DNA of 64,000 bases from assembly GCF_027359575.1 (NCBI RefSeq), contig NZ_CP114784.1, positions 1,177,819 to 1,241,818 on the forward strand. The letters are read 5' to 3'. Under the pieces are notes generated by a model, which worked only from the letters and a program-made list of their open reading frames with translations, was not told where the DNA came from and did not search any database. The DNA is from Prochlorococcus marinus str. MIT 0917. GTDB taxonomy: Bacteria > Cyanobacteriota > Cyanobacteriia > PCC-6307 > Cyanobiaceae. Position numbers and translations under genes: made by a program. Positions 9,270-30,900 of the stretch are shown piece after piece. The number at the start of each line of letters is the position of its first letter. The stretch's first letter is position 1.

Positions 9270-10067
9270 TTAAAGCAAGAAGGGTAATCTCTTACTCTCA
9301 AAATCAAGCAATTTAATTGTACAAAAAAGACCTACTATATTAATGCCCAAAATTAAAATTGAATGCTGATAATTTATATATCCACTAATTATACTAATTC
9401 TAAGAGGATCTAAAATCTGATATATAAAGTTTAAATTTGTAATCCAATCTAAAGAACCTAAACTTTCTTTTCTATATAATATTGGGGAAGTTAAAAAAAC
9501 TAACTGGAGAACTATAGGGACTAATTGAGCAATATCTGTGAACCGAACACAAATCAAGCAAACAATTACCGGGAACCAATATATGAAGATAAATAAATTT
9601 AACAATGGTATCCATGAATAAGTTAATAAATTACTTATTAATGTAATTTTTAAAAAAAGAAATACAAAAAACACTAATACAAAAGATTGAATAAAAGTTT
9701 GTATCTGAAAAGCCCATTCTTCTAAAGTATAAAAAATAGGCTTCAGATTCATATTCTTAATATTCGATGAATTACATGCAAACAGATTAGGTGAATTCGA
9801 GATAGATGAACTAATTGTATTCCAAATGAGTAGACCAAATCCTAAATATATAAAATAAGACCTAAAGTCTTCTACGGAAAAAACAGTACCATAAACAATC
9901 CCTAAAGTCCCGATAGATAATAAATTAGAAAAACCTAACCAAAAGCTTCCAAGAGTAGTTCTAGCAAATCTTGCTCTTGATCTTGAGGTAGCTGTATACC
10001 ACCATGCCTTCCTACTTTTAAAAGCAAATTTAAAATTACCCAACAACATTTTTACGATAATAGTCAT
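9270..10067 (-). CDS. ABC-2 type permease of a polysaccharide/O-antigen exporter (Wzm-like)
   Basis: This 265-residue membrane protein has about six hydrophobic helices and the Wzm/TagG-type N-terminal segment with SRSRARFARTTLGSFWLGF, an amphipathic stretch just before the first helix. It is the presumed channel half of an ABC exporter that moves a lipid-linked glycan across the inner membrane. Its ATG lies inside the 3' end of the ATPase gene upstream (overlap of 32 bases), so the two are translationally coupled and surely form one transporter. It is convergent with cysE with a gap of 36 bases. The substrate is unknown; a surface glycan is likely given the glycosyltransferase and gmd genes nearby. 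Confidence 0.88.
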   Translation of the reverse strand: MTIIVKMLLGNFKFAFKSRKAWWYTATSRSRARFARTTLGSFWLGFSNLLSIGTLGIVYGTVFSVEDFRSYFIYLGFGLLIWNTISSSISNSPNLFACNSSNIKNMNLKPIFYTLEEWAFQIQTFIQSFVLVFFVFLFLKITLISNLLTYSWIPLLNLFIFIYWFPVIVCLICVRFTDIAQLVPIVLQLVFLTSPILYRKESLGSLDWITNLNFIYQILDPLRISIISGYINYQHSILILGINIVGLFCTIKLLDFESKRLPFLL

Positions 10068-11421
10068 GAGTATGATAGTAATTCAATGCAGCATCTAAAG
10101 GGCCGTCATATGCAATTGATCCATGGCTAAAAACAATGCCTCTATTACAAAATTGCTTTAAAAGTTCTTCAGAATGACTCGCTAAAAATAAAGTTGCTGC
10201 GGATTCCATAAATTCTTTCATTCTCTCTTCAGCTTTATCGTAAAAGTCAGCATCACCTGTTCCAAACCCTTCGTCTATAGCCAAACAATCATGAGGACTT
10301 GAGGTAAGAATAGAAAAAATTAATCTTGCAGACATTCCATCGCTATAAGTTTTTATAGGCAAAGAAATATAGGAACCTAGACCTGAAAATTCTATTATTT
10401 CATTTAAGAAAGGTTCGAAGCCTTTTAGACTGTGATTTTTAAGTAAATAATGTGCTTTACATGCATCAATTCCAGAAAGTTCTGAACTAGTTAAAAAGGT
10501 CTTTTGGAGCATAGGATAAACATCTACTAAAACATTGATATTTCCTTTTGTAGGTAAATAAATGCCTGATATCAATCTTAGAAAACTACTTTTACCAGAA
10601 CCGTTATGACCAATTAGCCCTACTCTTTCTCCTTTCATGATAGTCAAATTTATATTATTTAGTGCGATTACATTAGTTCTATTTTTAGATTGATCTAAGG
10701 CACCACCTGTAAAGTTAATAACTTTCTTTGTAAATCTCTTGGTAAGAGACCTGTTTTCTAAATGATAAATAGGTATAGAAATAGATAAATCTCTAATTTC
10801 TATAGCTGGATTATTAAGCATATTTATTGAATCATCGGATAACGAGAAAACAACATCCCTTATCTGCTCAATGTTGACTTTCTGAAAAGTTATATTACTT
10901 AGAAAATTTGATACTCTAGCGAAAGCATTACCTGACAGCCAAGGGGATATTGAAGCAGGCTTATATAAATTAATCAAAGTAATGCTCTTACTAATTTGTT
11001 TAGTAAATAATTCTGCAGCAGAAATCTTATTTTGTAAAATATTTATATCATTTAATTCTTGTTCAGAATTAATAGAGTAAGACTTATTAGTTGAATACAA
11101 AAGTTCAAATACTACATCTGCAATTTGATAGTCTTCAACATTAATCCTATCCATCCAATAATTCAAACCTTCAAAATCTGCTTTTCTATTAAATAAGTTT
11201 AAATATAATTTATTAATTTTAAAATCAATAGATTTATCTTGAGAAATAGATTGTTTATATTCATCCTGTCTAGATAATTCATGAGATATTTCTCTAATAG
11301 TAATTGATTCATTAACTCGTGAAAGCCAATAATTTATTCCAGATGGATCTCCAGGTCTTCCAAAATATGCTATGTATAATTTTTGCAATTCATTGGAATC
11401 AATATTAATCATTTCAGTCAA
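10036..11421 (-). CDS. Wzt-like glycan-export ATPase with N-terminal DUF4214 module
   Basis: This is a 461-residue fusion. Residues 1-200 hold two DUF4214-like units (LQKLYIAYFGRPGDPSGINYW at about 12-32, INKLYLNLFNRKADFEGLNYW at 69-89) and a closing SPWLSGNAFARVSNFLS segment (159-174). Residues 205-461 form a Wzt-type ABC ATPase: Walker A GHNGSGKSS (271-279), signature YSDGMSARL (359-367), Walker B CLAIDEG (379-385) and switch His416 (ASHS). Ordinary Wzt proteins either lack extra domains or have a C-terminal glycan-binding domain; here the extra domain is at the N-terminus and the protein ends just after the ATPase. The N-terminus aligns closely with that of the large secreted protein at 22342-26442. 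It is 14 bases from the secA stop, in the same direction. Confidence 0.9.
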   Translation of the reverse strand: MTEMINIDSNELQKLYIAYFGRPGDPSGINYWLSRVNESITIREISHELSRQDEYKQSISQDKSIDFKINKLYLNLFNRKADFEGLNYWMDRINVEDYQIADVVFELLYSTNKSYSINSEQELNDINILQNKISAAELFTKQISKSITLINLYKPASISPWLSGNAFARVSNFLSNITFQKVNIEQIRDVVFSLSDDSINMLNNPAIEIRDLSISIPIYHLENRSLTKRFTKKVINFTGGALDQSKNRTNVIALNNINLTIMKGERVGLIGHNGSGKSSFLRLISGIYLPTKGNINVLVDVYPMLQKTFLTSSELSGIDACKAHYLLKNHSLKGFEPFLNEIIEFSGLGSYISLPIKTYSDGMSARLIFSILTSSPHDCLAIDEGFGTGDADFYDKAEERMKEFMESAATLFLASHSEELLKQFCNRGIVFSHGSIAYDGPLDAALNYYHTHDYYRKNVVG

Positions 11422-11435
11422 TTAAATGGTTGAAA

Positions 11436-14270
11436 TTATTCTTCTATTTTCTTTTGAGTAGGTTGAAACATAAACATGGAATAAATTACATTTCTTCTCA
11501 TGTTTATCATCATATCTAAAAACATATCGTAGCCCTCATTTTTGTATTCAATTAAAGGATCTTTTTGTCCATATCCTCTTAATCCAACTGATTCTCTTAG
11601 TGAATCCATAGCCTGCAAATGCTCTCTCCAAAGGGTATCTAATTGCTGAAGAATAAAGAATCTTTCAGCTTGTCTCATTATTCCTGGATGAGTTTGTTCT
11701 AATTGAGCTTCCTTCATATCGTAAGCATTTCTAAGCTGCTCTTTCAAAAAATCTTTTAATTCACTTTTATTTAGTCCAAGTAAATCTTCAGGTTTAAGAT
11801 CATCCAATAAATATATAAATTCTTTCACTTTAGAAACTAAATTAGTTAAGTCCCACTCTTCAGGTGGTAAATCTTCGTTAACATATGCTTCAACTATTTC
11901 CTCCATAGTTCTTTGTCCATAACCTATAACTTGAAGTTTCAACTCTCTACCATCTAATACCCTTCTTCTTTCTGAGTAAACAGCTTTTCTCTGATTATTC
12001 ATTACTTCATCGTATTCAAATATTTGTTTTCTAATATCATAATAATAAGTTTCAACTTTTTTTTGAGCACCTTCTAAAGAACGAGTAAGCATACCCGACT
12101 CAATAGGCATATCTTCCTCTACCCTAAAAGCATTCATAAGGCCTGCAACTCTATCCCCTCCAAAAATACGAAGAAGGTTGTCTTCTAACGATAAAAAGAA
12201 ACGAGTACTTCCTAAATCTCCTTGCCTACCAGATCTACCTCTTAACTGATTGTCCACTCTCCTAGACTCATGACGCTCAGTTCCAATCACATGAAGGCCA
12301 CCTGCCTCTCTTACTCTTTCCTCTTCACTCGACAAAACCTCCTCATACTCTGTTTTGATTATTTGTATTGCACTTCTTAATTCCTCAATATTTTTATCCT
12401 TAGTAGGCGTTTTTTCAGCCGCAGTAGCAATGTAATCATCTAGCTCAATGGAACTTAAAGCTCTATCTCCCCATTCTTTAACCAATTTGGCAGACAAAGA
12501 AGCTAGTTTTTTATCTGTGTCTTCAGTCAACAAAGCAGGATAGATATTTTTTAAAGATTCAGATTGAATTTTTTTTGAACTAAAAGTACTCGAATTTGCA
12601 GCTTCCAAAAATCCCTCTGAATTAGTCTTTCTTTGTAGAGGAATAGGTGGCTTATGATCTTCTTCTGGCTTGACTAAACGATGACTAAGAATTTCCTTTA
12701 TTTTCAATCGAGCCATGTAATCGCTATTTCCACCCAGGATAATATCCGTTCCCCTTCCAGCCATATTAGTCGCAATAGTTACAGCGCCCTCTCTCCCTGC
12801 TTGTGCGACTATTTCAGCTTCTCTCTCAACGTTTTCAGGTTTTGCATTTAATAAGTTGTGAGGTATTTGCTGCTCTGACAAAAGAGTACTTAACAACTCA
12901 CTCTTTTCAACACTTGTAGTTCCAACAAGTACAGGTCTGCCTTTTTGATGAATATCAGCAGTTTCTTTTGCAACTGCTCTCCATTTAGCAGATTCAGTTT
13001 TAAAAACTTGGTCAACCCAATCTGCTCTGGAAATCTTCCTATTAGTTGGAACAACTGTAGTCTCTAATTTATAAGTTTTTTCAAATTCAACTTCCTCAGT
13101 TTTTGCAGTTCCGGTCATTCCTGAAAGTCTGGGATATAAAAGAAAGAAATTTTGATATGTAATTGAAGCCAGTGTTTGAGTTTCTGGTTGTATTGGTAGA
13201 TTTTCTTTTGCTTCAATAGCTTGATGCTGTCCATCACTCCACCTTCTACCAGGCATAACTCTGCCAGTAAATTCATCAACAATTACAGCTTCTTTATTTC
13301 TAACTATGTAATTAACATCTTTAATAAAAAGCTCTTTTGCCTTTAAAGCATTGGTAACGTAGTGAGCCCATGGATCTTTTGGATCGTACAAATCTTGCAC
13401 TTGTAAAAACTTTTCAGTCTTAGCAAATCCTTCATCTGTCAATATACAACTCCTTTGTTTTTCATCTACTTCGTAGTCTCCCTCTGGATCAATTCCCTCT
13501 TTACTTAATTCTTTTGCTCTTAATAAGTTATTTACTACTTCAGCAGCTTTTTGATATTTTTCCTGAGATCTTTCTACTTGTCCAGAAATAATTAGAGGTG
13601 TTCTTGCTTCATCTATCAAAATCGAATCAACTTCATCAATAACACAAAACTGAAAATCTCTATGGACTATTTCTGATTTATCAGCAGCCATATTATCTCT
13701 TAGATAATCGAAACCCAATTCAGAATTAGTAGCGTATGTTATGTCACAATTGTAATTTTCTCTTCTTTGTTGTGGATTCATATCCTGCTGGACCAATCCA
13801 ACACTAAGACCAAGAAATCTATGAATTTGTCCCATCCATTCAGCATCTCTTTTAGCTAAATAATCATTAACAGTAACCACATGGACCCCCCTGCCAGTCA
13901 AGGCATTTAGATAGCTTGGCAATGTTGCAACCAATGTCTTACCCTCTCCTGTTTTCATCTCGGCAATTTGTCCTTCATGAAGTACCATCCCTCCAATAAG
14001 TTGAACATCAAAATGTCTCATTCCCAATACTCTTTTAGAAGCCTCTCTCACAATCGCAAATGCTTCTGGGAGCAGATGATCCAGCAAAGAAAGCTGTTCT
14101 TTAAATGATGAAACTTTTTTCAGCTTGATCTTAAAATCACTTGTACGTGCTCTCAGATCGTCATCACTCAAAAGAACCAATTCTTCTTCAAACAAATTTA
14201 TATCTGAGACGAGAGGAGCATATCGTTTAATTTTTCTTGTATTTGGGTCACCTAATAATTTCGCAAACAT
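11436..14270 (-). CDS. secA: Protein translocase ATPase SecA
   Basis: This is the 944-residue motor that drives proteins through SecYEG (plasma membrane and thylakoid in cyanobacteria). Walker A MKTGEGKT is at about 105-112, the DEAD-like [21 protein letters not shown] at about 212-232 and the [10 protein letters not shown] motif of the second helicase lobe further on. The preprotein cross-linking domain, helical scaffold and the two-helix finger ([22 protein letters not shown]) are recognisable. It lacks the C-terminal zinc-binding SecB tail and ends in QPTQKKIEE, as is typical of cyanobacteria. An insert around residues 530-640, rich in Lys/Ser, makes it longer than the E. coli core. It is an essential gene lodged inside an otherwise accessory surface block; co-orientation with the exporter genes suggests read-through. 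Confidence 0.97.
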
Positions 14271-14492: not shown

Positions 14493-15548
14493 GTGCCTCA
14501 AAGCAAAATCGCACTGATCACAGGAATTACAGGGCAGGATGGTAGCTACCTTGCTGAATTACTTTTGAGTAAAGGTTACGAAGTACATGGTCTCATAAGA
14601 CGATCCAGTCAAGTCAATACAAATTTACTTAAACATTTAATCAATGATCAAAGCAAAAATAACTTGCATTTTCATTACGGTGACATTAGTCAAAGCACAA
14701 ATATTCTGAGAATTATCGGTGAAATCAAACCTGATGAAATATATAATCTAGCAGCACAAAGTCACGTAAAAGTTAGTTTTGATTTACCTGAATATAGCGC
14801 TCAAACCAATGCACTTGGACCACTAAGGATTTTAGAATCTATTAGAATATTAGGCCTAACAAAGAAAACAAAGATTTACCAAGCAAGCACTTCTGAACTT
14901 TACGGTCTTGTAAGAGAAAGTCCCCAATCAGAAAACACTCCATTTTACCCTAGAAGCCCATACGGAGTTGCAAAGTTATACGCCTATTGGATAACTATTA
15001 ACTATCGAGAATCATATGGAATTTTTGCATGCAACGGCATTTTATTTAATCATGAATCACCAAGACGAGGAGAGGATTTTGTAACTAGAAAAATCACTCT
15101 AGGGCTGTGCCGAATTGATGCTGGAACTCAAGACTATTTATCAATGGGCAATATTGATGCTTTACGTGATTGGGGTCATGCCAAAGATTATGTTGAGATG
15201 CAATGGAGAATGCTTCAACAAGATATTCCAGAAGACTATGTTATCGCGACAGGTCAAATGACTTCTGTTAGAAAATTCATTGAGATGTCAGCTGAAGAAT
15301 TGAATTGGGGAGGAATTATATGGGAAGGTGAAGGCCTCAATGAAGTTGGGAAAAGAAAGGATAATGGTAAAATAGTTATCAAAATAAATCCTAAATACTT
15401 CAGACCATGCGAAGTACATAATCTTCTAGGAGATGCCCAAAAGGCACAATCGAAACTTTCATGGAAAGCTAAAACAACAATCAAAGATTTGATCAGAGAA
15501 ATGATTAATCATGATCGAAAATTAACTTTACAAGAATTATCTTCTTAG
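14493..15548 (+). CDS. gmd: GDP-mannose 4,6-dehydratase
   Basis: This 351-residue short-chain dehydrogenase-fold enzyme converts GDP-D-mannose to GDP-4-keto-6-deoxymannose, the precursor of GDP-fucose, rhamnose or perosamine for surface glycans. The NAD(P) loop [11 protein letters not shown] is at 10-20, the RRSS motif at about 36-39 binds NADP, the active-site STSELYG is at about 131-137 and the YGVAK (YxxxK) pair follows. [12 protein letters not shown] and the [10 protein letters not shown] motif are typical of GMD. The start is a GTG at 14493; an ATG 10 bases upstream is out of frame. No GDP-fucose synthase (fcl) or perosamine synthase is in the window, so the final sugar is not known. Confidence 0.95.
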
Positions 15549-15606: not shown

Positions 15607-16785
15607 ATGGATCTAATTTACAGTGCCGTTATAAATAATGAATTTAAATCTCATACAGAAATAACGTTATCAAATAAAGAAATAATAACTTATTATATTG
15701 ATAATACATATGGATGGAATGATCTTTCACTATATAATATATCAGGAAGTAGTAATACAATAATTACAGATAAAATTACTACTTTTAACTTAGGCCATAG
15801 TCAACAGTATAAGAATTTCATAGAAGAATCATTGAATAAAATTGATGAAATTATTGATATTGATTTCGCTCCAATGTCTACAAATAATGGATCTATGCTT
15901 GATATTTACCATGTAAACTACTCTTCAGGATTCAAGGAAAATGTCATAGGTCAAGTAATTCAACAAAAATCTAATGCAGGGTACTGGTGGGAAATACTTT
16001 GGAAAGATAATCCTTCAACTACTCAAAATAATCAAAAAGCTAATCTTAATACTATATTGCATGAAATTGGACACTCACTTGGATTAGGGCATCCATTTAA
16101 TGATCCAACTAATCCTCTATGGGATTCATGGGATACTATAATGTCATATAACAAAGGGGCTAATGATTGGAACACATGGTTCTCAGAAGTTGACTTAAAT
16201 GCACTAATAAAAATGTGGGGTAGAGAAGATGATCTAGGATTTATAGACTATAAAGATAATAGTTCTAATTATAAATTCAAACAGTCTAAAAATAAAAATT
16301 ATTTTATTAAAACGGATATAGGATATGAAAATATCACGGAAATTAATACTCTAAAATTTACTGATAAATCAATTAATGTTGAAACAGATATTGTTGGCGT
16401 ATTTAACCTAATTAAATCAGAAGATGATATTTCGGGTAAAATATATAGACTTTATAATGCGGCTTTTTCTAGATTTCCAGATAATAGTGGTTTACAATAT
16501 TGGATAGAAAAAAATGTTTCTGGTGAAAACACGTACAAACAAACAGCTAATTCATTTTTAATATCAGAAGAATTCAAGAATACATATGGAACCGATTCCA
16601 GCAATCATGACTATATTACAAATCTTTACAGCAATGTTCTAAATAGAACGCCTGATATAGAGGGTTTTGAATATTGGTACAATCAAATCGAGACAGGATT
16701 GGAGGATAGAAGTGATTTACTTATTGGGTTTTCTGAGTCCTCAGAAAACAAGTCAGTTTTCTTAAATGAAACAAACATTATTTGA
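15607..16785 (+). CDS. Serralysin-like zinc metalloprotease (M10B type) with C-terminal DUF4214 units
   Basis: This 392-residue protein has the metzincin motif HEIGHSLGLGH (His152, Glu153, His156, His162) and a Met-turn TIMSYN (Met179), which place it with serralysin/M10B peptidases. The N-terminal part up to 150 includes NVIGQVIQQ and YWWEILW but no Sec signal peptide, as expected for a type I secretion substrate. Residues 225-265 (YFIKTDIGYENITEINTLKF) resemble the linker after RTX repeats, though true GGxGxDx repeats are missing. Two DUF4214-like units follow (YRLYNAAFSRFPDNSGLQYW at about 280-299, TNLYSNVLNRTPDIEGFEYW at about 338-357). It may mature or shed the large surface protein or aid nutrient uptake; both are guesses. 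It lies upstream of the secretion operon. Confidence 0.85.
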   Translation: MDLIYSAVINNEFKSHTEITLSNKEIITYYIDNTYGWNDLSLYNISGSSNTIITDKITTFNLGHSQQYKNFIEESLNKIDEIIDIDFAPMSTNNGSMLDIYHVNYSSGFKENVIGQVIQQKSNAGYWWEILWKDNPSTTQNNQKANLNTILHEIGHSLGLGHPFNDPTNPLWDSWDTIMSYNKGANDWNTWFSEVDLNALIKMWGREDDLGFIDYKDNSSNYKFKQSKNKNYFIKTDIGYENITEINTLKFTDKSINVETDIVGVFNLIKSEDDISGKIYRLYNAAFSRFPDNSGLQYWIEKNVSGENTYKQTANSFLISEEFKNTYGTDSSNHDYITNLYSNVLNRTPDIEGFEYWYNQIETGLEDRSDLLIGFSESSENKSVFLNETNII

Positions 16786-17131: not shown

Positions 17132-17875
17132 ATGAAATCAATAGATCTCTTCCCTGAAGAATGCATAACAGTATTGCAAGAAAATAAATTAATTAAACCT
17201 CTTATTAAAGGAGAATTAATTAAAGAATTGCTGTCAAAGATCGCTCTTAGCAAGGAAGAGGAGGAAAATGCACTTCAACGTTTTATAAAAAAACTAGGTA
17301 TAACCGATTCAAAAGCCTTAGAGAAATGGATAACAACTAATAAATTGACTGAAAGTGATTTACAAGAAAGAGCAAATAAAGAATTTAGATTAACGAAATA
17401 TTGCATAACAAACTTCAGTCACAAGGCTGAGTCAAGATTTATTGAGAGGAAGGAAGAGTTAGATATAGTTGTATATAGCTTAATAAGAGTAAAAGATATT
17501 TTTAAAGCAAAGGAGTTTTACTTAAGGATTATAGAAGGAGAAAGTGATTTTGGAGATTTAGCTACACTTTACTCAGAAGGTTTAGAGAATAGAACTCGCG
17601 GTATAATTGGTCCAATTCCTTTGAAGCAAGCACATCCAAGACTTGTGACCTTATTAACCAATAGTAAACCAGGGGTAACGCAACCACCTATAGAGATTCA
17701 AGGATCACATTTAGTAGTAAGAGTCGAATCTTACGATTCAGCTCAATTTGATAGTTTTATGAAAGAAAAAATGGTATTGGAGTTATTCGACAAATGGATA
17801 GAAGCAGAAGTAAGCAACATTTCAGATAATTTTTTACTAAAAAATGAAATAAAAAACAAAGGTGTAGCAAAATGA
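17132..17875 (+). CDS. Parvulin-like (SurA/PrsA family) protein of type I secretion operon
   Basis: This 247-residue protein has a C-terminal parvulin-like fold (about 105-205): VVYSLIRVKDIFKAKEFY, GESDFGDLATLYSE, GIIGPIPL, KPGVTQPPIEIQGSHLVVRVE. The catalytic parvulin His of the first strand (xxHILV) is replaced by YSLIRV, while the last-strand His (GSHLVV) remains, so it may be a chaperone rather than an active isomerase. The N-terminal 100 residues are helical and mixed-charge, with no signal peptide, so it acts in the cytoplasm. Its stop overlaps the ABC transporter start (ATGA, 17872-17875). Such proteins occur beside type I secretion ABC genes in cyanobacteria, probably holding the substrate or assisting the transporter (inference). 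Confidence 0.8.
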   Translation: MKSIDLFPEECITVLQENKLIKPLIKGELIKELLSKIALSKEEEENALQRFIKKLGITDSKALEKWITTNKLTESDLQERANKEFRLTKYCITNFSHKAESRFIERKEELDIVVYSLIRVKDIFKAKEFYLRIIEGESDFGDLATLYSEGLENRTRGIIGPIPLKQAHPRLVTLLTNSKPGVTQPPIEIQGSHLVVRVESYDSAQFDSFMKEKMVLELFDKWIEAEVSNISDNFLLKNEIKNKGVAK

Positions 17876-20823
17876 ATATTAATTTTAGATCAATAAAAGC
17901 ATTTAGTGAGATTAGTGATCAAAATTTAAAACTCATAGAACGTGAGGCAGAGTACTTAAAATATCCTCTAGGTTATCCAATTTGTAATAAACAACTGATA
18001 CCAAATAAAATACAAATTATCATAAGTGGAGAGGTAAGGTTTATACATGGTACTAGTCAAAAAGCAATAACCATATGTAAATTAGGTACAGATAACTTTA
18101 TTGGTCTATCTTCTATATTAAGAGCTGAGGGATGTGAATCTTTTTCAGCAAGTAGTGATGTTGTAACACTGGCTTTATCAGATAATCTAATATTAAAGTT
18201 ATACAAGGAAGAAGAGTATTTTAGAAAATTTTGCAATACATCTATTCAAGTTGGGGAAGTATTTGATATAACACTTCAGCTCTACCGTGATTTAGCAAAA
18301 AGTCATTTAAATATTAAGCAAATTTTTGATTTATTATTCAATAGTGCAAGTCTAAAAATAATTAATAATGATAATAAAATATCATTAGATCAAGAATATA
18401 TAGGTTTTCTTGCAAGTGCAAATGTTATTGATTTAGAAATTGGATCAAACGTTATAAACAGGCAGAAAATCAATACTAGAGGTCCGCTTCCAGCAAGAAT
18501 TTATACTTTCCCAAAATCAGTTTATAACCAGATATATGAATCTAATATTTCAGGTAAGAATCAAGATAAAGACATAGATTCCTATGATCTTGAAAATCTA
18601 GATATTCAAGAAGGTATAGGAACGCTATATCAAAGTAGTGAGAAAACAGGTCAATATTCTCCTACCAAAAAATTAAAAATCATTAAAGCTACCGGTGTGA
18701 TGAGAGAGACACTGGCATGCCTTCAAATGTTAGCAGCCGAATTAGATCTTCCATATAGAGTTGATTCAATTGAAAAAATACTTAGAGACTCTTTTAAAAG
18801 AGGTAAAAAGCCAACAATCCAATTGTTAGGAGGCATAACCTCCATGATGGGTTTACATTCATCCACAGCCAAAGTTGAGGCTAAAAACGGAACTCGGCTC
18901 CCATATCCATCTTTAATTAGTTGGGGTGAAAGTTTTGCATTTGTAAAAGAAAGTAATTCAAATTTCCTAGAGATCATATCGCCAAGCCAGGGCATAATTA
19001 GATTATCTAAGGATCAATTATTAGAGAGTTTTGATAAAGATTTTATCGAGTTACTTTTAGTTGAAAAACATGAGCAAACCCCAGAAGCAAAATTTGGACT
19101 TCAATGGTTATTACCATCAATAAATAGATATAAAGTTATACTTATTCAAGTTTTATTAGCCTCTTTTGTTGTTCAATTATTTGGCTTAGTTAATCCTTTA
19201 ATGATACAAGTAATTATTGATAAAGTAATAAGTCAAAGAAGCCTAGACACTCTTCAAATTTTAGGAGTAGCACTGGTAGTTGTAACAATACTTGGTGGGA
19301 TCATAAGTAGTCTACGTACATTCTTATTCACTGAAACAACAAATAGAATCGATACGAGACTTGGATCAGAAGTCATTGATCATTTACTTCGATTACCTCT
19401 AAATTATTTTGATCGTCGACCAGTTGGAGAGCTTGGCAGCAGGATTGCAGAACTAGAAACAGTTAGAAACTTTTTAACTGGACAAGCATTAACAACAATA
19501 TTAGATGCCGCTTTTTCAATAATATATATTATTGTCATGGTGATTTATAGTTGGTTATTAACATTATTAGCCTTAGCTGTAGTACCAATACAAATACTAA
19601 TTACCGTTATAGGTACACCATTGATCCGCAGACAAATCAGAGAGATAGCACAAGAAAATGCAAAAACACAAAGTCATTTAGTAGAAGTGTTAACTGGAAT
19701 ACAAACAGTAAAAGCACAAAATGTTGAAAGAGTAAGTCGATGGAAGTGGCAAGAATTATATGGCAAATATATTTCTAAGACTTTTCAAAAGACCCTTACA
19801 GGAACTGCCTTAGGTGAAACAAGTCAAGTGCTGCAACAGCTATCTCAGCTTTTAGTTTTATGGGTTGGAGCAACATTAGTACTAAAAGGTGAACTAACAT
19901 TAGGGCAACTTATAGCATTTAGAATAATATCTGGTTACGTAACTCAACCACTTTTAAGGCTAAGTACAATTTGGCAAAACATTCAAGAATTAAGAGTTTC
20001 ATTCGAGAGATTATCCGATATTATTGATACTCCGCAAGAAGCAAGTGAGCTGGATAGAGGGAAGATTCCATTACCAAGCATTGAGGGTAAAGTAGAATTT
20101 GAGGATGTTTCTTTTGCTTTCGATATTGGAAAACCACTTGTGCTTGACAAAATCAATCTAAATATAAAACCTGGACAATTTGTTGGTGTAGTAGGACAAA
20201 GTGGAAGCGGAAAAAGTACACTTATGAAACTTTTACCCAGACTGTACAATCCAAACTCAGGTAAATTAATGATTGATGGATATGATATTAACAAGGTTGA
20301 GTTATATTCTTTAAGAAGACAAATTGGAATTGTGCCTCAAGAACCTCTGCTATTTGCTGGCAGTATTACTGACAATATTTCATTAACTGATCCTGATTCA
20401 TCAAGTGATGAAATTGTAAAAGTTTCAAAAATTGCCAATGCTCATGATTTTATTATGGGACTTGAAGATGGGTACAGTACAAATATTGGGGAACGAGGAG
20501 CTGGATTATCTGGAGGTCAAAAACAGAGAATTGCAATAGCAAGAACCTTACTAAGTAATCCAAAATTATTAATAATGGATGAAGCAACCAGTGCTTTAGA
20601 TTATCAAACTGAAAGAAAAGTTTGTGAAGGGCTTAAAGGCTCATGTCAAAACTCTACAGTATTTTTTATTACTCATCGACTCAGTACAGTAAAAAATGCA
20701 GATTTAATTGTGATGCTTCATCAAGGTTCTATAGTTGAGAAAGGAAGTCATAAGGAGCTAATGGAGCTAAGAGGAAGATATTTTGCCCTTTACAGACAGC
20801 AAGAGTCTACAGGAAATGAATAA
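17872..20823 (+). CDS. Type I secretion ABC transporter with N-terminal cNMP-binding-type and degenerate C39 domains
   Basis: This 983-residue fusion begins with a cyclic-nucleotide-binding-type beta-barrel (about 10-125; IIISGEVRFIHG, FIGLSSILRAE). A linker is followed by a C39-peptidase-like domain (about 270-395). In that domain the catalytic Cys position reads Glu279 (RETLACLQML aligned to DCGLACLAMI) and the His position reads Ser354 (ISWGESFAFV), so it is a non-cleaving CLD, as in HlyB. Six membrane helices (about 415-690) and an ABC domain follow: Walker A GQSGSGKST (775-783), LSGGQ (879-883), Walker B LLIMDEA (899-905), His935. It exports unfolded RTX-type proteins together with the adaptor downstream and an outer-membrane TolC not found in this window. 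Confidence 0.93.
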   Translation: MNINFRSIKAFSEISDQNLKLIEREAEYLKYPLGYPICNKQLIPNKIQIIISGEVRFIHGTSQKAITICKLGTDNFIGLSSILRAEGCESFSASSDVVTLALSDNLILKLYKEEEYFRKFCNTSIQVGEVFDITLQLYRDLAKSHLNIKQIFDLLFNSASLKIINNDNKISLDQEYIGFLASANVIDLEIGSNVINRQKINTRGPLPARIYTFPKSVYNQIYESNISGKNQDKDIDSYDLENLDIQEGIGTLYQSSEKTGQYSPTKKLKIIKATGVMRETLACLQMLAAELDLPYRVDSIEKILRDSFKRGKKPTIQLLGGITSMMGLHSSTAKVEAKNGTRLPYPSLISWGESFAFVKESNSNFLEIISPSQGIIRLSKDQLLESFDKDFIELLLVEKHEQTPEAKFGLQWLLPSINRYKVILIQVLLASFVVQLFGLVNPLMIQVIIDKVISQRSLDTLQILGVALVVVTILGGIISSLRTFLFTETTNRIDTRLGSEVIDHLLRLPLNYFDRRPVGELGSRIAELETVRNFLTGQALTTILDAAFSIIYIIVMVIYSWLLTLLALAVVPIQILITVIGTPLIRRQIREIAQENAKTQSHLVEVLTGIQTVKAQNVERVSRWKWQELYGKYISKTFQKTLTGTALGETSQVLQQLSQLLVLWVGATLVLKGELTLGQLIAFRIISGYVTQPLLRLSTIWQNIQELRVSFERLSDIIDTPQEASELDRGKIPLPSIEGKVEFEDVSFAFDIGKPLVLDKINLNIKPGQFVGVVGQSGSGKSTLMKLLPRLYNPNSGKLMIDGYDINKVELYSLRRQIGIVPQEPLLFAGSITDNISLTDPDSSSDEIVKVSKIANAHDFIMGLEDGYSTNIGERGAGLSGGQKQRIAIARTLLSNPKLLIMDEATSALDYQTERKVCEGLKGSCQNSTVFFITHRLSTVKNADLIVMLHQGSIVEKGSHKELMELRGRYFALYRQQESTGNE

Positions 20824-21964
20824 TTTAAAAAACAAACAACCTTTTAATTGGACAAATAAGATAAGTGAAAATTTAAACAATTTTCACAAAAAAAAATCTA
20901 TATGGATGTCCTCATTAAAAGAAAGATTCTCAGCACTTGATCGAAAAGAGTTAACTTCAAGCATAAAAAACACAGTCAAGAAAAAAATAAATTTAAGAAT
21001 TCCAAACCCATCTATTTATCTACAAAAATTACAAGACAAGCTTGAGCAAACAGCTAGAAGTGATACAAATCAAGTTGTATTAAAACAATCCAGATTTTGG
21101 GCAAGTGCGATTACTTGGGTATTAATGGGCAGTACAGCATTTGCAATAGGATGGATTTCAATAGCAGAAACAGATGAGATCGTTATAGCCAGGGGAAAAT
21201 TAATACCAAAGAGAGGAGTCGTTGATGTTCAAATGCCATTAGAAGGAGTAGTAGAAGAAATCTTGATAAAAGATGGAGACTACGTATCAAAAGAACAACT
21301 ATTAATACGTTTAGATACTGAAGCTACTAAAGTACAAAATTTATCACTGAAGAATAACCTTAAAATAAACAAAGATGTGCTCAATAGGCTTAGCGTATTA
21401 GTAGAACAAGGTGCTGTCTCTGAGCTGCAATATATGCAGCAAAAGGAAAAAATTGAAGATCTGGAAAGTCAATTAAAAATAAATCAAGTAAGGCTCAAAT
21501 ATCAAGAGATATTAGCTCCAGTAGAAGGAAAAGTGTTTGATCTAAAGCCTAAAGGTGAAGGATATGTAGCAAGAGCAAGTGAAGTACTCCTAAAAATAGT
21601 ACCTGAAGATAATTTGATAGCAAAAATAGAAATAGATAGTAGAACCATAGGCTTTGTTAGGAAAGGGAAAAAGGCAGAAATAAGTATAGATTCATTTCCA
21701 GCAAGTGACTTTGGAGTAATTGAAGGTGTATTAACTAGCATAGGCTCGGATGCCCTAGAGCCTAAACCATCTGAAAATAAAGGGTATAGGTTCCCAGCGA
21801 AGGTAGAGCTTTATGATCAACATTTGGAATTAAAGTCAGGACAAAAGCTGAGCCTGAAACCAGGTATGAGTTTAACAGCTAATATAAAACTCAGAAAAGT
21901 AACCTACCTTCAATTATTTTTAAACAAATTTACTGATAAAGCTAATTCATTAAAATCTCTTTAA
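20816..21964 (+). CDS. HlyD-type membrane fusion protein of type I secretion system
   Basis: This 382-residue adaptor starts at ATG 20816, overlapping the ABC transporter stop by 8 bases; an in-frame upstream GTG-type extension is less likely. It has an N-terminal cytoplasmic tail of about 90 residues that is basic and unusually long, one membrane helix (WASAITWVLMGSTAFAIGWISI, about 95-117) and a lipoyl-like half motif (GVVDVQMPLEGVVEEILIKDGDYVSKEQLL). A coiled coil (about 165-230) and the second lipoyl half with a barrel (ILAPVEGKVFDLKP; VLTSIGSDALEPKP) follow. The coiled coil is short relative to E. coli HlyD. The family links the inner-membrane ABC transporter to TolC across the periplasm. 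Confidence 0.92.
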   Translation: MNNLKNKQPFNWTNKISENLNNFHKKKSIWMSSLKERFSALDRKELTSSIKNTVKKKINLRIPNPSIYLQKLQDKLEQTARSDTNQVVLKQSRFWASAITWVLMGSTAFAIGWISIAETDEIVIARGKLIPKRGVVDVQMPLEGVVEEILIKDGDYVSKEQLLIRLDTEATKVQNLSLKNNLKINKDVLNRLSVLVEQGAVSELQYMQQKEKIEDLESQLKINQVRLKYQEILAPVEGKVFDLKPKGEGYVARASEVLLKIVPEDNLIAKIEIDSRTIGFVRKGKKAEISIDSFPASDFGVIEGVLTSIGSDALEPKPSENKGYRFPAKVELYDQHLELKSGQKLSLKPGMSLTANIKLRKVTYLQLFLNKFTDKANSLKSL

Positions 21965-22341: not shown

Positions 22342-25300
22342 TTAATCAATAATGATTTGATTTGCAGTGACAGAGTTAGTATCTGCAAATAGACCAACAC
22401 CAGTAGTAGATTTCAAGAGAATCAATGTATCTGCTGATGATGCAGTAGCAGCAAGGTTGGTATAAACGAAGGTAGAATCCGCTGAACCATTGCCAGTACT
22501 GTCGTACTCGAATGTAACTGTGGTGTCTGTTTCTAAGTTAGCGTTCAAGTAACCAGTTGCATCAGATAGATTACTGCTGTTGATTACTACAGCTGCAGAA
22601 TAAGTAGAGACGTCATCGAAGGATACTTCACCATTAGTAAGTGAGTGACTCTTGAGAGTACCGAAATCGGTAGAGCCTATCGAAGTACCAACAGTAGCTC
22701 CTGTACCGACATCAAGTATGTCACCGTGATGATTAGTACCAGAACCTGCAGCTTGATAGCCGGTAATGGTGTCATAAGCGCCGACTACTGAATCTCCATC
22801 TGCAAAGACGAAACTAGTAACGTTTACGTCATGAATTTCGCCGTTAGTTCCAGAAGTTTTCTTGATACTGTCAACTCCCTTACCACCTGTGATAGTGGCA
22901 ATTCGTCCACTGCTTTGCTGAACCAAAGTACCGTAACCAAATTCAATAGTGTCGTTACCAGCTCCAGTGCTGATTGTCATTGTAGAACCGGCATTTGCGC
23001 TACCAATACCAATAAGGTTAGAAGCAGTACCAGTTTTAACAGTGTCGTTGCCAGCTCCGGTAGTAATAGAGATGTCTTCACTTGCAGCTCCGAATACAAG
23101 TGATGCTCCACTAAATGTCAGAGTTTGATCCTTGGTATAAAGACCACCAGCCCAAGTAATAGTGGAGTTATCAGCAAGAGTTCCACTAGTGAACGTTAAC
23201 GAATCTGAGTATGCAGTCTTAACTGCTGCTCCTGTAGTGACTGAAAGATTGCCAGTACCAACAGTAAGTAGTTTCTCAGCGTTAGTGATGTTAGTGAAGT
23301 GATTATCAATAAGAGTTACTGCACCAGAATCACTAATTCTAATTGTGTCAGTACCTGCACCAGCATCGATTACGTGATCATCTGATCCAGTTGCAACTAA
23401 TTTCGCGAAGGCTGCAGTAATGGTGTCATCACCAGCTCCAGTGTTATAGGTAGAACCCATATTCGTGGAGACAGTTACTAGGTCTTTACCTCCACCAGTG
23501 GTAAGAGTAGAAGCCTTAATGAAAGCTCCAGAAACTGTTACGTCACCAGTGGTTGTGGAATTGAACGTAATAGCCTTTGCTGTATTGGCTCCACTGATAG
23601 TCATATCAGCAGTACCGGAGAAATTAACAGCTTTTAATGTAGTAGCTCCGCCACTAGCAAAAGCAACATCACTATCAGTGGCAGCTGTTCCAGTTGAACC
23701 CTTAACATTAAGAGTTTCTACTCCAACAACACTGAGACCAGCTATATCAACGTTTGTGGTTGATGTAGCACTCTTAAGATCCAATGTGACCACATCAGCA
23801 GAACCTGTTGCATTGGTGAGTGTGACTGTAAATGCAGTTGCCTGGCTTCCAGTAACTGTAATGTTTTCAGCAGCCGTTGAATTGACCCCTGATAGAACTC
23901 CACTGGTGTCAGCTGCCATCTCTAAACCAGTAATACCAGCAATTAATGACACGTCTTGAGAGTCTGAAACAGATAATGTCTCAAAACCTGTGTATCTATC
24001 AGCTTCAGCAGAAGTATCTAAATCAGCTGCTGCAGTGACAACGAGGGTATCTGTACCATCACCAGCTGCAACTGCAAACTTATCAGCAGTAGCAAAACCA
24101 TCTGCTGCAGTTGTGAACTTGTCATCACCAGAACTCAATGTGTATACAGTTTCGCTTGCATCAACGTCTGTAACTACGACTCCACCAGTGCTACCTGAAG
24201 CATCAACAGTATCAAACGCTGTATCAAGAGTGTTAAGAGTAACTTTACCTGCACCAGTAATTGTAAGAGTACCTTTACTTGCTACATCAGAAGAGATGGT
24301 GACATCTGTTGCACCAGATGCATCCAAAGTAACTGTCTTAGCTGCTTTAGAAACTATAGAAGAAACTTTGTTTGTACCTGTAGCAGTAATATTTAGGGTC
24401 TCAATTCCAGTACCTGAGGAATCACCAATGGTGATTGTTCCTGCATTAGAACTGCTAGATAATTCAAGAGTACCTACTGTGTCTGCTCCTTTAACGACGG
24501 CAGCCGCATATTGAATATCTGTTGTGGCTCCTGTACCACCAGCAACGCTTGCTACAACAAGCTTGTCGTTTTCAGCTACTCCTGTGAACTTAACAGGATT
24601 GGTACTTGCAAAGTTCTTGTATTCATCAACTCCAGTCCAAAGTGAAGTGTCTACAGTTTGAGTATTAGTAGTTGTACTGTTTGCAGTAACTGCTGCGGAA
24701 CCTTGGGTCACAGTAATTGTTGGAGCTGCAGATACTGAGGAGCCAAGACTTGAAGTTGTAGTTGCAGAGGTACTTGTGACGGTATTACCTACAGAGAATC
24801 GAGATAAATGAATAGCTTGACCTTCACCATCAACGGTAATGATGTCAGTGTCTGCAGCGAAACTTGCGACAGTACGTCCAATATGGTTGTTAATTGAAGT
24901 AACCAGAGCTGCACCTGCAGCTTCTTCGGTGTTAGCTGAAAGTGTTCCTGTAGAAAGTACTTCACCGTTGAGATAAACAGCTGATGTATCACTAGCTGTA
25001 GATGCTGGAACAGTTCCAAGAGTATGAGTCGACTTAGTAGAAGCAAGCTTGGCGCTCATCGTAGTTGCAGGAGTTGTACCTGCCATCACGAAGCTACCAA
25101 CTGTCTTACCCCTGACAACCACTACTAATTCACTTGAATCAAGGTATGCAACTTTACTTCCAGCAACTGAGTTCATCTGATCAGTTATGGAACTGACCAT
25201 ATTCTTCAGACCAGTTACATTGGCATTACCTGCAGCTGCAGATGAAACAGTCGTACCGTCTAAATCAAGCGTTACTCTGTTGTCAGCGTTAGCCGCATTG

Positions 25301-26442
25301 GTAGCGAAGGTTAATACTGTTACTTGCTCAGTAGCCGAAGAACCAGTACCAGTTGCAGCTAAGTCAGTCTTATTTCCAGTTGAATCAGCTGTAAATTTTG
25401 TAGATGTGACTGTTCCACCAGAAGCAGCGGTATAGCCGGAGATTGTTCCAGAAAGTACTGCACCAACTGCACCACCTGCATTTGATGCAATAGAAACTCC
25501 TCCACTGAAAGCCGTTGCCAACTGAGTTGGAGTAGCTCCTTGTGAACCAGCAGTAAATGTCAATCCTGCAAGTGTAAGTTTTTCATAACCCGCAAGAGTT
25601 TTGAATTCAACTGCTGCAGTCTCAGTTGAAGCAGCTGTAGCAGCATTACCACTTAAGTTTCTTACTGAGATCTTTTCAATATCAGATAAGGAAACACCTG
25701 GCATTGCAGTACCAGTAGTAGATGAATCTACATACTCAAGAGTATCTACACCATCACCACCTACAAGTACATCATTAGCTTGGAGAGTTGAGTCTGTTCC
25801 TTGGAAAATATCTCTTCCAGCTCCACCAGTCTTATTGTCAATATTAGATGTAAGTTTGAAAGTTGTAGAAGCAGTAGGAACTCCTGTAGCTACGATTTTA
25901 GCGACACTGGCAGCAATGCCTGCAGCAGTAGAAGCAGTACTCTTGTCTATGCCAGACATATAGCTAACAGCTTCCTTGATGTTATCTCCAGAAACCCATG
26001 GACTAGTTGACTCTGCTTGATAAGCAAGTATTCCACCAACTGTTTCTTTAACCTTTGCTGTGTAAGCGACTGCAGCGTTAGTTCTATTAGCTAAAGCAGT
26101 TTTATCATCAGCACTACCAGCATTGTTTTGAGCCGCCCAAATCAAGTCATTAGCAATTTCAGCTAATTTAAGATTTCCTAAGTTAATCTGCTGTGTCCAA
26201 TAAGTTAAACCTGCTACATCAGCTTCTCTGTCAAAAAGGTTCTTGTAAATCTGGTTTACCTGAGATTCTGTACTTAGAGATCCATAAGCGTCTTTAAATT
26301 CTGCTTGCACATACATATCAGCAGCGAATGTTGCCGTACTAATCCCCTTTTCCGTCCAGTAGTCGAGACCAGTGGGATCCGCAGCTCGACCGAAGTAAGC
26401 AACGTAGAGCTCTTGAAGTTGTGTGCTAGTCGCGTTGGCCAT
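22342..26442 (-). CDS. Large DUF4214-headed, RTX-like surface (S-layer-type) protein
   Basis: This 1366-residue protein is rich in Thr, Ser, Ala and Gly and has no cysteine. Residues 1-190 hold two DUF4214-like units (LQELYVAYFGRAADPTGLDYW; YKNLFDREADVAGLTYW) and an SPWVSGDN segment. The body has beta-type repeats and scattered RTX-like motifs: GGDGVDTLEY, TGAGDDTITA, GAGTDTIRI, TGAGNDTVKT, TGAGNDTIEF. Its C-terminus (LFADTNSVTANQIIID) is hydrophobic and looks like a type I secretion signal; no Sec signal is seen. I start at ATG 26442 (MANATS); a 16-residue upstream extension is unsupported. The G+C content is visibly higher than its neighbours (sampled lines 38-43% against about 30%), as in highly expressed genes. 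It probably forms a surface layer, exported by the adjacent type I system (inference). Confidence 0.88.
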   Translation of the reverse strand: MANATSTQLQELYVAYFGRAADPTGLDYWTEKGISTATFAADMYVQAEFKDAYGSLSTESQVNQIYKNLFDREADVAGLTYWTQQINLGNLKLAEIANDLIWAAQNNAGSADDKTALANRTNAAVAYTAKVKETVGGILAYQAESTSPWVSGDNIKEAVSYMSGIDKSTASTAAGIAASVAKIVATGVPTASTTFKLTSNIDNKTGGAGRDIFQGTDSTLQANDVLVGGDGVDTLEYVDSSTTGTAMPGVSLSDIEKISVRNLSGNAATAASTETAAVEFKTLAGYEKLTLAGLTFTAGSQGATPTQLATAFSGGVSIASNAGGAVGAVLSGTISGYTAASGGTVTSTKFTADSTGNKTDLAATGTGSSATEQVTVLTFATNAANADNRVTLDLDGTTVSSAAAGNANVTGLKNMVSSITDQMNSVAGSKVAYLDSSELVVVVRGKTVGSFVMAGTTPATTMSAKLASTKSTHTLGTVPASTASDTSAVYLNGEVLSTGTLSANTEEAAGAALVTSINNHIGRTVASFAADTDIITVDGEGQAIHLSRFSVGNTVTSTSATTTSSLGSSVSAAPTITVTQGSAAVTANSTTTNTQTVDTSLWTGVDEYKNFASTNPVKFTGVAENDKLVVASVAGGTGATTDIQYAAAVVKGADTVGTLELSSSSNAGTITIGDSSGTGIETLNITATGTNKVSSIVSKAAKTVTLDASGATDVTISSDVASKGTLTITGAGKVTLNTLDTAFDTVDASGSTGGVVVTDVDASETVYTLSSGDDKFTTAADGFATADKFAVAAGDGTDTLVVTAAADLDTSAEADRYTGFETLSVSDSQDVSLIAGITGLEMAADTSGVLSGVNSTAAENITVTGSQATAFTVTLTNATGSADVVTLDLKSATSTTNVDIAGLSVVGVETLNVKGSTGTAATDSDVAFASGGATTLKAVNFSGTADMTISGANTAKAITFNSTTTGDVTVSGAFIKASTLTTGGGKDLVTVSTNMGSTYNTGAGDDTITAAFAKLVATGSDDHVIDAGAGTDTIRISDSGAVTLIDNHFTNITNAEKLLTVGTGNLSVTTGAAVKTAYSDSLTFTSGTLADNSTITWAGGLYTKDQTLTFSGASLVFGAASEDISITTGAGNDTVKTGTASNLIGIGSANAGSTMTISTGAGNDTIEFGYGTLVQQSSGRIATITGGKGVDSIKKTSGTNGEIHDVNVTSFVFADGDSVVGAYDTITGYQAAGSGTNHHGDILDVGTGATVGTSIGSTDFGTLKSHSLTNGEVSFDDVSTYSAAVVINSSNLSDATGYLNANLETDTTVTFEYDSTGNGSADSTFVYTNLAATASSADTLILLKSTTGVGLFADTNSVTANQIIID

Positions 26443-27018: not shown

Positions 27019-27987
27019 TTGGAAAGTTTTTTGACTTCAAAAACAAGTCTAATATTTGGATGCAATGGACAAGATGGTTCATTAATTTCTAAATCTCTTT
27101 TAGACAAAAATTACAAAGTTATAGGTGTCTCAAGACAAGGTCAAGATACCTCCACTAACCATTCATTACTTGGCATAGATAAAGACATAGAGACAGCAAA
27201 AGGAGATATCAAAAATTTTAATTTGGTTCAAAATTTAATCGCAAAATATCAACCTGATGAAATTTATAACTTAGCCGCACAATCATCAGTTGGAGTATCC
27301 TTCAAAGAACCTATAATTACTGCTGAAAGCATAATAAATGGAACGATAAATATACTTGAAGCCTCTAGAAAATTGCAATTTGATGGGAGAATTTTTTTTG
27401 CAGGAAGTAGTGAAATGTTTGGTGAAACCAAAACAGCAGCTGACATAAATCATATCCATAAGCCTAATAATCCATATTCAATTGGGAAACAAACCAGCTA
27501 CCAATTAGTAAAATTCTATAGAACTACATATAATTTAAAATGTGTGACTGGAGTTTTATTTAATCATGAATCGACACTAAGAAAAGAAAATTTTGTAACT
27601 CAAAAAATAATTTCAGGAGCAATAAAATGCTTTAAAACAAAAACTCATGTATTAAAGCTAGGAAATCTTGACATATCAAGAGATTGGGGCTGGGCAGAAG
27701 AATATGTTGAAGCAATGCAAATTATTGCAAGAGCTGATTCACTTAAAGATCACGTAATATGCACTGGCAAATCGACCAAATTAAAAGAATTTATTCAAAT
27801 TGTCTTTAACAAATTAAATATGAATTGGGAAGATCATGTCACCTATAATAAAGATCTGTACCGTGATACGGATATAAAAACAAGCTTTGGAAACCCAAAA
27901 CCACTAGAAGAAGATTTAAACTGGAAAGCAAAAGTATCATTAAGAGAATGTATTAATAAATTAATCGATTATAAATTTAAACATTAA
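27019..27987 (+). CDS. GDP-mannose 4,6-dehydratase-like nucleotide-sugar dehydratase, second copy
   Basis: This 322-residue paralogue of the gmd at 14493 has the NAD(P) loop FGCNGQDGSLI (about 13-23), active-site AGSSEMFG, the YSIGK pair (YxxxK) and GVLFNHESTLRKENF and DISRDWGWAEEYVE motifs typical of GMD. It is about 30 residues shorter. The RRSS NADP motif of Gmd is replaced by VSRQGQD, so cofactor or substrate choice may differ. The reading frame opens with TTG codons (27019 and 27031) and no in-frame ATG nearby, so the start is uncertain. It is convergent with the giant glycosyltransferase gene with an 11-base overlap. Alternative: a GDP-4-keto-6-deoxysugar reductase or related enzyme. 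Confidence 0.85.
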   Translation: MESFLTSKTSLIFGCNGQDGSLISKSLLDKNYKVIGVSRQGQDTSTNHSLLGIDKDIETAKGDIKNFNLVQNLIAKYQPDEIYNLAAQSSVGVSFKEPIITAESIINGTINILEASRKLQFDGRIFFAGSSEMFGETKTAADINHIHKPNNPYSIGKQTSYQLVKFYRTTYNLKCVTGVLFNHESTLRKENFVTQKIISGAIKCFKTKTHVLKLGNLDISRDWGWAEEYVEAMQIIARADSLKDHVICTGKSTKLKEFIQIVFNKLNMNWEDHVTYNKDLYRDTDIKTSFGNPKPLEEDLNWKAKVSLRECINKLIDYKFKH

Positions 27988-30900
27988 AAGATCTGTTTTC
28001 TTCAAGACTTGAAATCATAGAATACAAACGAAAGCTCAATTTTCGAAAACTTCTATTCTTGATTAAAGTATCTTTTTTTGAATCAACTGGGATGTTTAAG
28101 TTTTGAATTAATTGATACAAACCTTCTGATATTGCTTTGGGTGTAATATCACTAAAATAAGAAACTAAATTTGAGACATCATTAAAAATGGGTAGAGGTG
28201 TAACAATTACTGGCTTTAAAGTAGCTAGACCATGTCTTACAGCAGCGCTTGAAGATTCAGTTGATGACTGATAGGGAAACGCTATAATATCATGACAGGC
28301 AAGAGACTTTAAAGTTTCATCATCTGTTTTATATTCTGGATATATTTTAATAATTTCCTGAAGATTCAACTTTACAACTAAATCCTGAAGTTCCTCGTAA
28401 ACGCTAATGTAATTATCATTGTAAATAGCTGAGAAAATATTAACCTCTATATTTAGTGGATATTGTTTTAACAAGTTAATAGCATGAACTAATTCTTTAA
28501 AACCTTTATTTGGAAGACAAAATCCATAGCTAGCAATCAGAACTTTATCTTCTTTTATAGGTTGAATGAATTTAGATTTATAATCTAAAATGCCATGAGG
28601 AAATAAACAAACATTATTAATTAAATTAATATTTTTCATCCGATTTAAATCATCAATAGTATGAACTAATAATCGATCACACAATTTAAAAGCATCAAAT
28701 AAATTAAGAAGTTTCTTAGATTGATCGTGTAATGGATCTATGGTGGAATGTATAAATATTATTATATTAATATTATTATTTTTCAGTTTAAAGATAAATT
28801 CCTTAAAAGAGCTATACTGAAAAAATGAAAAGTTAAATTGTATAATTAGAGTCGTAATTTTATATTTTAATACATTACTCAAAAGTTCTTCTAAACTATT
28901 ATTATCATCAGCTTCAAGGTACCAAGAAGGTAAAATAGTATGCTCTAGTTCACATACTTTGTGCTCATCAAAAGGATTAAAAACTACTACCTTATCATTA
29001 AAATGATCCAATAAATGCCTGGAATATGATGCAATACCGCATCTTGTATTCCATGTGGTCACCCAACCTATTTTAACAGGTTTTTGAAAATGATTATTTA
29101 CTCTATTATAGACAAATTGCAAATTTTTCTGAGCAACATTTTCCCATGTAAAAGTTCTAGCTAATTCTTTAGCTTTTTCTGTTTTAAGTAATAATTCAGA
29201 TTCATCTTGTTTATATAGCTTGAGGAGTGTACTTGAAAGATGACTTACAGAAGGTTCCGCCCAATATGAATTATCTAAATCAAAATGAGATTTTGCTTGG
29301 ACAAATGAATAATCAATAAGCCAAGAATTATCATTTGTACAGAAATCAGTTTGGCCTCCCCATCCAGTTGTGATGACCGGTAAGCCTAAAAGCATAGCTT
29401 CTGCGATTGGCAATCCAAATCCTTCTCCTCTACTTGGGGAGACTAAAACATTTGACTGTAAATATAATGATTTTAAATCTTCATCACTAATATTATTCTT
29501 TAAGAGAATAACGTCAGGGAAAGATGGGTTAATGGTTTTAAGTTTATTTAATAATAAATCAACATCATTATGTTTATTATCGAAAGTTTTAATAATAAGT
29601 GAAACGTTATCATTAGAAGTAAAAGAATTAGAATATGCTTCTAGTAATAAATCCAAGCCTTTCCTTGGGAAACAAGATGATATATGTAAAAACTTAAATT
29701 CTTTAGAATCAATATAAAAATCTTTTGATGGAATAATACTATCCAAGTGATCTAAACCTAAACCACAAACTTCAATCGGAATAGAAACTCCATTATCTAT
29801 CATTATCTTCTTAACTTGTGAAGACATAACAGTTATTCCTTGGAGATAGGAATTAAATTGAGAAACCCATTCAGATGGGAATACCCCCTCCTCCCAGCCA
29901 TAGGCATGAATTAGCTTGTATCTAGAATTTAAATCACTTACGCGAGGAGGAAACATATTACGGCTAACAACATCACTTTTAAAGGATTTATTTTTATTTG
30001 ACTTTGTAAACAAAGAAAATATATTCAAATCTTTTTTCATAAAATCAATATCAACTTCATAATCTCCTAGGCCCTCAGTAACATTAATGGAAACATTATC
30101 TACAAATTTATTTAGCGCAAGAGCAAAAGATCTATTTAAAATAGCTAAACTATAGTTGGAGTCAAAAGGTCCCTCTATCTTCCAAGATTCGACTTTTTGG
30201 CTAGAGGTATTAACACAAAGTAAATTATCTATTTGGATATTCATAAGATCAATACATGAAGCTATCTGAATTAATAATTTGGAATTTTTCTGGTTAATAT
30301 TAGATTTAAAGGATTTAATCTTTATAAAAAGATTGATAAGATATCTATTAGATAAATCAGATCTATTTTGCCAAGAAATTAAATCATTTTTTTTACTTCT
30401 TCTACTAATAATATCTTCACAAGCTTTCACAGCCTTCTCTGCTGATTTCTTCCAAGAAAACTTATCCTTTTGTAATTGAGAATTATTTATTAATTTATCC
30501 ATGAAATTCTCATCTGTCAAAGCTTTCTGAATTAATCGCTTTATACTTAAGACATTATTGGGATCAAACATTGCATCATTAATAGATATAATTTCAGGAA
30601 TACTTGTAGACTTAGATGCAATTACTGGAGCACCGCAAGACATAGCCTCTAAAATAGGCAATCCAAAGCCCTCATGAAAAGAAGGGAATATGTATAATGA
30701 ACAATTCCTATATAAATAAACCAACTCTGTATCAGTTACATATCCTAAGATCTCCACATTCTGCGAGTTTATTTTAAATAGATTTATCCATTTATGAATT
30801 AATTCTTTCTCAGATTTAAATAACTTTCCCGCAAGAACTAATTTGTACTTTTTAAGATCATCTGGTAGAAGACTATATGCTTCAAGTAAACCTTTTAAAT

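Follow-up and report, generated by a model that had tools for sequence, protein, structure and literature searches.

A module shared by a Wzt-like export ATPase of Prochlorococcus and a probable surface protein encoded nearby

A Wzt-like export ATPase of Prochlorococcus marinus str. MIT 0917 carries at its N-terminus a helical module that, as a full-length unit, is found in just one other protein of the genome, a giant and probably secreted protein encoded nearby. On the sequences compared here the fusion appears genuine and conserved in the genus, and exporter and surface-protein genes appear to share their fate. We propose that the module is a glycan-recognition domain on the ATPase, a relative of which anchors the secreted protein to the exported chain. 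This proposal as a whole is possible, in our judgement just short of an even chance. That the ligand is a glycan, that it is one and the same for both copies and that export is gated by its binding are the parts of it that we infer. All coordinates are positions in the window, the analysed 64,000-nt stretch of contig NZ_CP114784.1.

Results

Architecture of the fusion ATPase

The wzt-like gene was identified by its open reading frame, by Pfam and NCBIfam profiles and by its recurrence in relatives. It lies at 10036–11421, as given in the original prediction, on the minus strand. Translation from a TTG at 11421 yields 461 residues, and from an ATG at 11412, three codons downstream, 458 residues; the latter appears the likelier start because the alignment of relatives begins at a methionine there. 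The N-terminal part contains two DUF4214 (PF13946) stretches (Pfam, 42.7 bits against a cut-off of 23.2), and an ABC_tran domain is recognised with 53.5 bits (cut-off 25). The closest model for the ATPase is the NCBIfam galactan Wzt/RfbE model (residues 207–452, E 6.7e-57). The protein terminates 9 residues past this match and nothing follows the ABC domain, so that the predicted order of DUF4214 units and a terminal Wzt-type ABC domain was borne out. With 192.5 bits against the 400-bit equivalog cut-off of NF050108 the protein falls outside the galactan exporters proper. Wzt_C (PF14524) was absent in the Pfam search, and the protein is accordingly not a Wzt of the O9a type with its carbohydrate-binding module (CBM).

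In the ABC domain (10066–10803, minus strand) the motifs GHNGSGKS, YSDGM and AIDEGFGTGD are intact, Walker A, signature and Walker B being all preserved, and the nearest models are those of Wzt and TagH, which makes the protein an ATPase of the Wzm/Wzt type. Its partner is an ABC-2 type permease (ABC2_membrane, wzm-like; 9270–10067, minus strand; identified by profiles) whose gene overlaps the end of wzt. The best model of this permease is the galactan exporter permease of NCBIfam (E 3.9e-24; 85.6 bits against an equivalog cut-off of 380), and the pair of ATPase and permease is conserved across the family. The best explanation for the wzt-like gene product is therefore a predicted ATPase of a Wzm/Wzt exporter for a lipid-linked surface polysaccharide.

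The N-terminal module (10828–11412, minus strand), as delimited by Pfam, BLASTP and AlphaFold2, comprises ~180–195 residues with two DUF4214 units and a helical C-terminal part. AlphaFold2 modelled residues 1–200 as one compact all-helical domain (16 sequences, pLDDT 86, pTM 0.86); the profile score above the cut-off upholds the assignment of these residues to the DUF4214 type. Along their entire length the first ~180 residues match the start of a 1366-residue protein encoded at 22342–26442 (BLASTP, 32% over 174 residues, E 5e-37). Since the alignment also covers the section beyond the DUF4214 pair, it spans the full length of the module, and on this comparison the N-terminal domain is more than DUF4214, namely a full module common to both proteins. 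Four other proteins of the genome contain the DUF4214 pair alone. The expected link of DUF4214 to large surface proteins was thus confirmed, the nearest match in the genome being located on the probably secreted giant protein, whose gene is 11 kb away from the wzt-like gene.

Within the module the alignment revealed a loop motif, Y-x3-S-x2-P-W-x2-G (residues 150–161 counted from the ATG; 10930–10965, minus strand), that is invariant in 21 of 21 fused modules and mostly retained in the secreted copies; over the entire fused module, identity drops to values as low as 27–45%. The loop belongs to a low-confidence region of the AlphaFold2 model and, because it sits where the prediction is least sure, could represent a functional site, a candidate for ligand binding, rather than a part of the structural core.

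The module and its DUF4214 units occur in further contexts. Secreted-type proteins in three other genomes of the genus (L022, L023 and L024 in G146, G110 and G130, respectively) have the ~180-residue module in an internal position or towards the C-terminal end, which is what one would expect if it were a portable surface anchor. A phage-like IMG/VR contig (L105:1959-5900) encodes, directly after a baseplate-like gene, a 1313-residue protein with several DUF4214 repeats; DUF4214 may also serve surface recognition by phages.

Conservation and origin of the fusion

The fusion is present in 31 of the 41 genomes of the genus and in 16 of those 17 that are at least 90% complete, with 47–83% identity of the fusion proteins over the matched length. 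Public relatives carry the name Prochlorococcus, and many of them come from single-cell genomes. The reading frame is open throughout the wzt-like gene, and an alignment of relatives revealed no conserved methionine near the domain junction. A frameshift, an assembly error or a mis-called start that joins two unrelated genes has the unusual architecture as the sole point in its favour. Recurrence of the identical fusion at this level of divergence, in complete chromosomes as well as in single cells, refutes such an artefact with near certainty, including the error confined to a single strain that the original prediction had named as fatal to it.

The dN/dS ratio of the N-terminal domain amounts to 0.21–0.34, compared to 0.04–0.11 in the ABC part (five pairs); judged by these values the domain is under purifying selection. 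Every intact exporter found in the genus keeps the module.

On an unrooted tree of modules the 21 fused copies form one clan (support 94/88), so that a single ancient fusion, presumably in the ancestor of this Prochlorococcus genus, is likely. Where Wzm (42–57% identical) occurs in the sampled genera of the family, it is accompanied by a Wzt consisting of the ABC domain only, often near secA, and a full-length profile match to the module–ABC fusion was seen in no other genus among 386 cyanobacterial genomes searched. As both the module and a C-terminal domain are missing from the Wzt orthologues of related genera, the comparison indicates that the module was added to an ATPase originally without a carbohydrate-binding module and was not swapped in. 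The notion that it occurs instead of the usual C-terminal domain is therefore right as to its position, at the opposite end from a classical CBM, and has to be corrected as to replacement: the closest exporters have no C-terminal domain that could have been replaced. In one genome of another genus (G037) a stretch of about 30 kb contains the genes of a type I secretion system (T1SS), of a giant protein with the module and of a Wzt made up of the ABC domain only. This arrangement suggests that the association of exporter and surface protein is older than the fusion, and that such a coat can do without the fusion.

The surface-protein island

The secA gene (11436–14270, minus strand) is located 14 bp upstream of wzt and divides the exporter genes from the surface-protein island, which extends from secA to a GNAT gene. 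It begins with gmd, a GDP-mannose 4,6-dehydratase gene scoring over the equivalog cut-off (14493–15548, plus strand). Type I secretion is represented by an HlyB-type ABC protein identified by profiles (17872–20823, plus strand) and an HlyD-type adaptor (20783–21964, plus strand). The gene of the giant surface-type protein follows at 22342–26442 (minus strand); its N-terminal ~185 residues (25885–26442) constitute the module. The product is probably a large secreted surface protein, and a function as S-layer former or LPS binder is assumed from the layout, i.e. the adjacent T1SS and the N-terminal module. Further downstream are a second GDP-mannose dehydratase-like gene (27019–27987, plus strand), a multi-domain GT4-type glycosyltransferase of 1208 residues (27977–31603, minus strand), a homologue of which adjoins the surface protein in L064, and a methyltransferase of 394 residues (31600–32784, minus strand) that is a candidate glycan modifier. 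The order wzm-wzt-secA, T1SS and module-bearing giant protein was found in the 10 genomes examined.

Additional features of the island concern the secretion genes. A metallopeptidase-like protein encoded between gmd and the T1SS genes (15607–16785, plus strand) has DUF4214 at its C-terminus according to Pfam, not the full module; its gene is conserved in most of ten genomes examined and its product is probably a further T1SS substrate. The gene of a PpiC-like protein (17132–17875, plus strand), which matches TIGR04500 (peptide maturation) weakly, overlaps the start of the HlyB gene. The HlyB-type ATPase itself (983 residues) features an N-terminal cyclic-nucleotide-binding-like region and a weak C39-peptidase-like region ahead of the membrane domain.

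Exporter and island have a common fate. In four genomes secA is assembled and an intact exporter is missing. Three of these (G202, G217 and G221) show the order mutS-ribH-GNAT-secA-cysE, in which island and wzt-wzm are cleanly absent and both flanks of secA are empty. The fourth (G222) has lost the ABC part of wzt and retains the module only as a frameshifted remnant; its wzm is interrupted by stops, and just scraps of gmd and of the methyltransferase gene are left of the island. A search of these four genomes detected the full module nowhere. Because G173, the sister of G222, keeps both exporter and island, the four losses correspond to two changes on two branches of the secA tree. Scorable genomes comprised 27 with both modules, 4 (67–86% complete) with the fused module only and 4 with neither (Fisher p 0.0013, a value that ignores relatedness). 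The retention of secA implies that the losses on its two sides were separate deletions, which speaks for one function.

Relation of the two module copies

Co-variation of the two modules might be expected if both read the same variable glycan. In 21 syntenic pairs no co-variation of fused and secreted modules was detected (Spearman 0.12, Mantel p 0.18), and the partial correlation given the ABC domain was about 0 in these pairs. The Wzt copies of the module track the ABC domain (Spearman 0.78, 21 genomes), and the secreted copies switch class without a change in the Wzt copy. This lack of co-variation would be compatible with a conserved core epitope, not with a variable one. At least two classes can be distinguished among the secreted modules (for example G161, G185, G207, G211, G227 and G231 versus the remainder). 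Their distribution disagrees with the Wzt/ABC tree, a mismatch suggesting an exchange of surface-protein types.

Discussion

Function of the module

We assume the following course of events. The ancestral exporter ATPase would have consisted of the ABC domain alone. A single event would then have added to its N-terminus a module of the type found at the front of the giant protein that the adjacent type I system secretes. On the ATPase the module may capture or check the polysaccharide before export, thereby standing in for the C-terminal CBM of O9a-type Wzt, and may help in glycan selection or in the start of export. The related module on the secreted giant protein would serve to tether this protein, on the outside of the cell, to the exported chain. 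This proposal is supported by the same ~180-residue module in both proteins, by synteny and by the joint loss of the two loci, as well as by the single clan of fused modules, purifying selection, the invariant loop and the glycan genes of the island (gmd, glycosyltransferase and methyltransferase). There are also precedents: CBMs on Wzt select the glycan (PMC9445017; PMC11231755), and RsaA, an S-layer protein exported by a T1SS, binds O-antigen through its helical N-terminal domain (PMC6978808). The absence of a sugar-binding homologue, the linker-like fold hint discussed below, the lack of co-variation and the ABC-only Wzt of G037 argue against it. The suggestion, made when the fusion was noticed, that the domain recognises a glycan accordingly found no confirmation in homology to the RsaA domain or in co-variation of the two copies; sugar binding is what we infer.

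Alternatively, the module could be a protein–protein docking domain that reads no sugar. The Wzt copy would then bind the module of the surface protein while the latter is still cytoplasmic, or the secretion or glycan-assembly machinery, and coat and glycan export would be coordinated in place and time. A phycobilisome linker is a protein–protein module, and the nearest fold match of the AlphaFold2 model of the module in the PDB was such a linker, 2ky4 (Foldseek, probability 0.93), at a non-significant E of 0.5. The two modules are moreover homologous, and the same genomes have them or have lost them; for exporters without a CBM, coupling to the biosynthesis complex is known (PMC11231755). However, direct contact would be expected to leave some co-variation, of which there is none, and the secreted copies switch type while the Wzt copy stays unchanged. 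With a fold hint below significance, we regard docking as unlikely. The module might also have arrived by chance recombination and be a purely structural or dimerisation part, its likeness to the surface protein having no functional meaning. It evolves 3–6 times faster than the ABC domain, and related genera manage without it, as this reading would have it. Its retention in every intact exporter found in the genus, the purifying selection and the invariant, exposed-looking loop argue against such a role, which we consider unlikely as well. The DUF4214 pair resembles the linker domains 2ky4 and 3osj (Foldseek, E-value not significant), which might reflect a distant family relation.

Returning to the glycan proposal, its strictest form would place one glycan-reading module at both ends of the pathway: the polysaccharide would be checked inside and the same polysaccharide gripped outside, so that only coat-holding chains are exported. 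We put this forward tentatively and hold it to be rather doubtful. If it is true, DUF4214 would be a glycan-anchoring domain. Binding of glycan by the module would provide a first function for DUF4214, would explain how such surface proteins could attach and would open the idea of an inside–outside match between coat and glycan to direct tests in Prochlorococcus. Prochlorococcus is among the most abundant photosynthetic organisms, and its surface structure governs phage infection and grazing.

Comparison with known systems

The module was considered as a homologue of the N-terminal domain of RsaA (PF19198), the most appealing lead to a function, and this gained no support: hhalign gave a probability of less than 1% and the HMM score was within that of 2000 shuffled RsaA sequences. 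The RsaA domain was not among the 50 best Foldseek matches listed for the AlphaFold2 model of the module, and neither a profile search of the PDB with the module nor an RsaA_NTD search in 194 cyanobacterial genomes gave support for homology. Relatives of the RsaA domain, whose query sequence had been checked against PDB 6t72, were found neither in plasmids (tblastn) nor in viral contigs (scan). RsaA of Caulobacter crescentus is alike in layout, in that this surface protein leaves the cell by type I secretion, starts with a helical domain and is encoded near glycan genes, but with no detectable relation in sequence or fold it serves as an analogy alone.

The openly accessible literature searched, in which four papers mention DUF4214, describes no Wzt that shares an N-terminal accessory domain with a coat protein of its own genetic unit. 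In characterised terminated-chain examples Wzt recognises the end of the sugar chain by a jelly-roll domain at its C-terminus. The CBM-bearing Wzt of E. coli O9a and Aquifex aeolicus likewise combine an ABC ATPase with an accessory domain, which in the present protein may read the substrate; in contrast to theirs, it is N-terminal and all-helical. The best-matching models are those of the galactan Wzm/Wzt of Klebsiella pneumoniae O1/O2 (NF050108/NF050109), an exporter that likewise works without a C-terminal CBM (PMC11231755), whereas the present ATPase has an additional N-terminal DUF4214 module and the scores are far below the equivalog cut-offs. DUF4214-bearing T1SS substrates of alphaproteobacteria and cyanobacteria have the same N-terminal DUF4214 pair, often beside T1SS genes; these proteins look secreted, while here the module is located on a cytoplasmic ATPase. 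The exporter itself is ordinary, and what is unusual is the added N-terminal module together with its twin on the coat protein.
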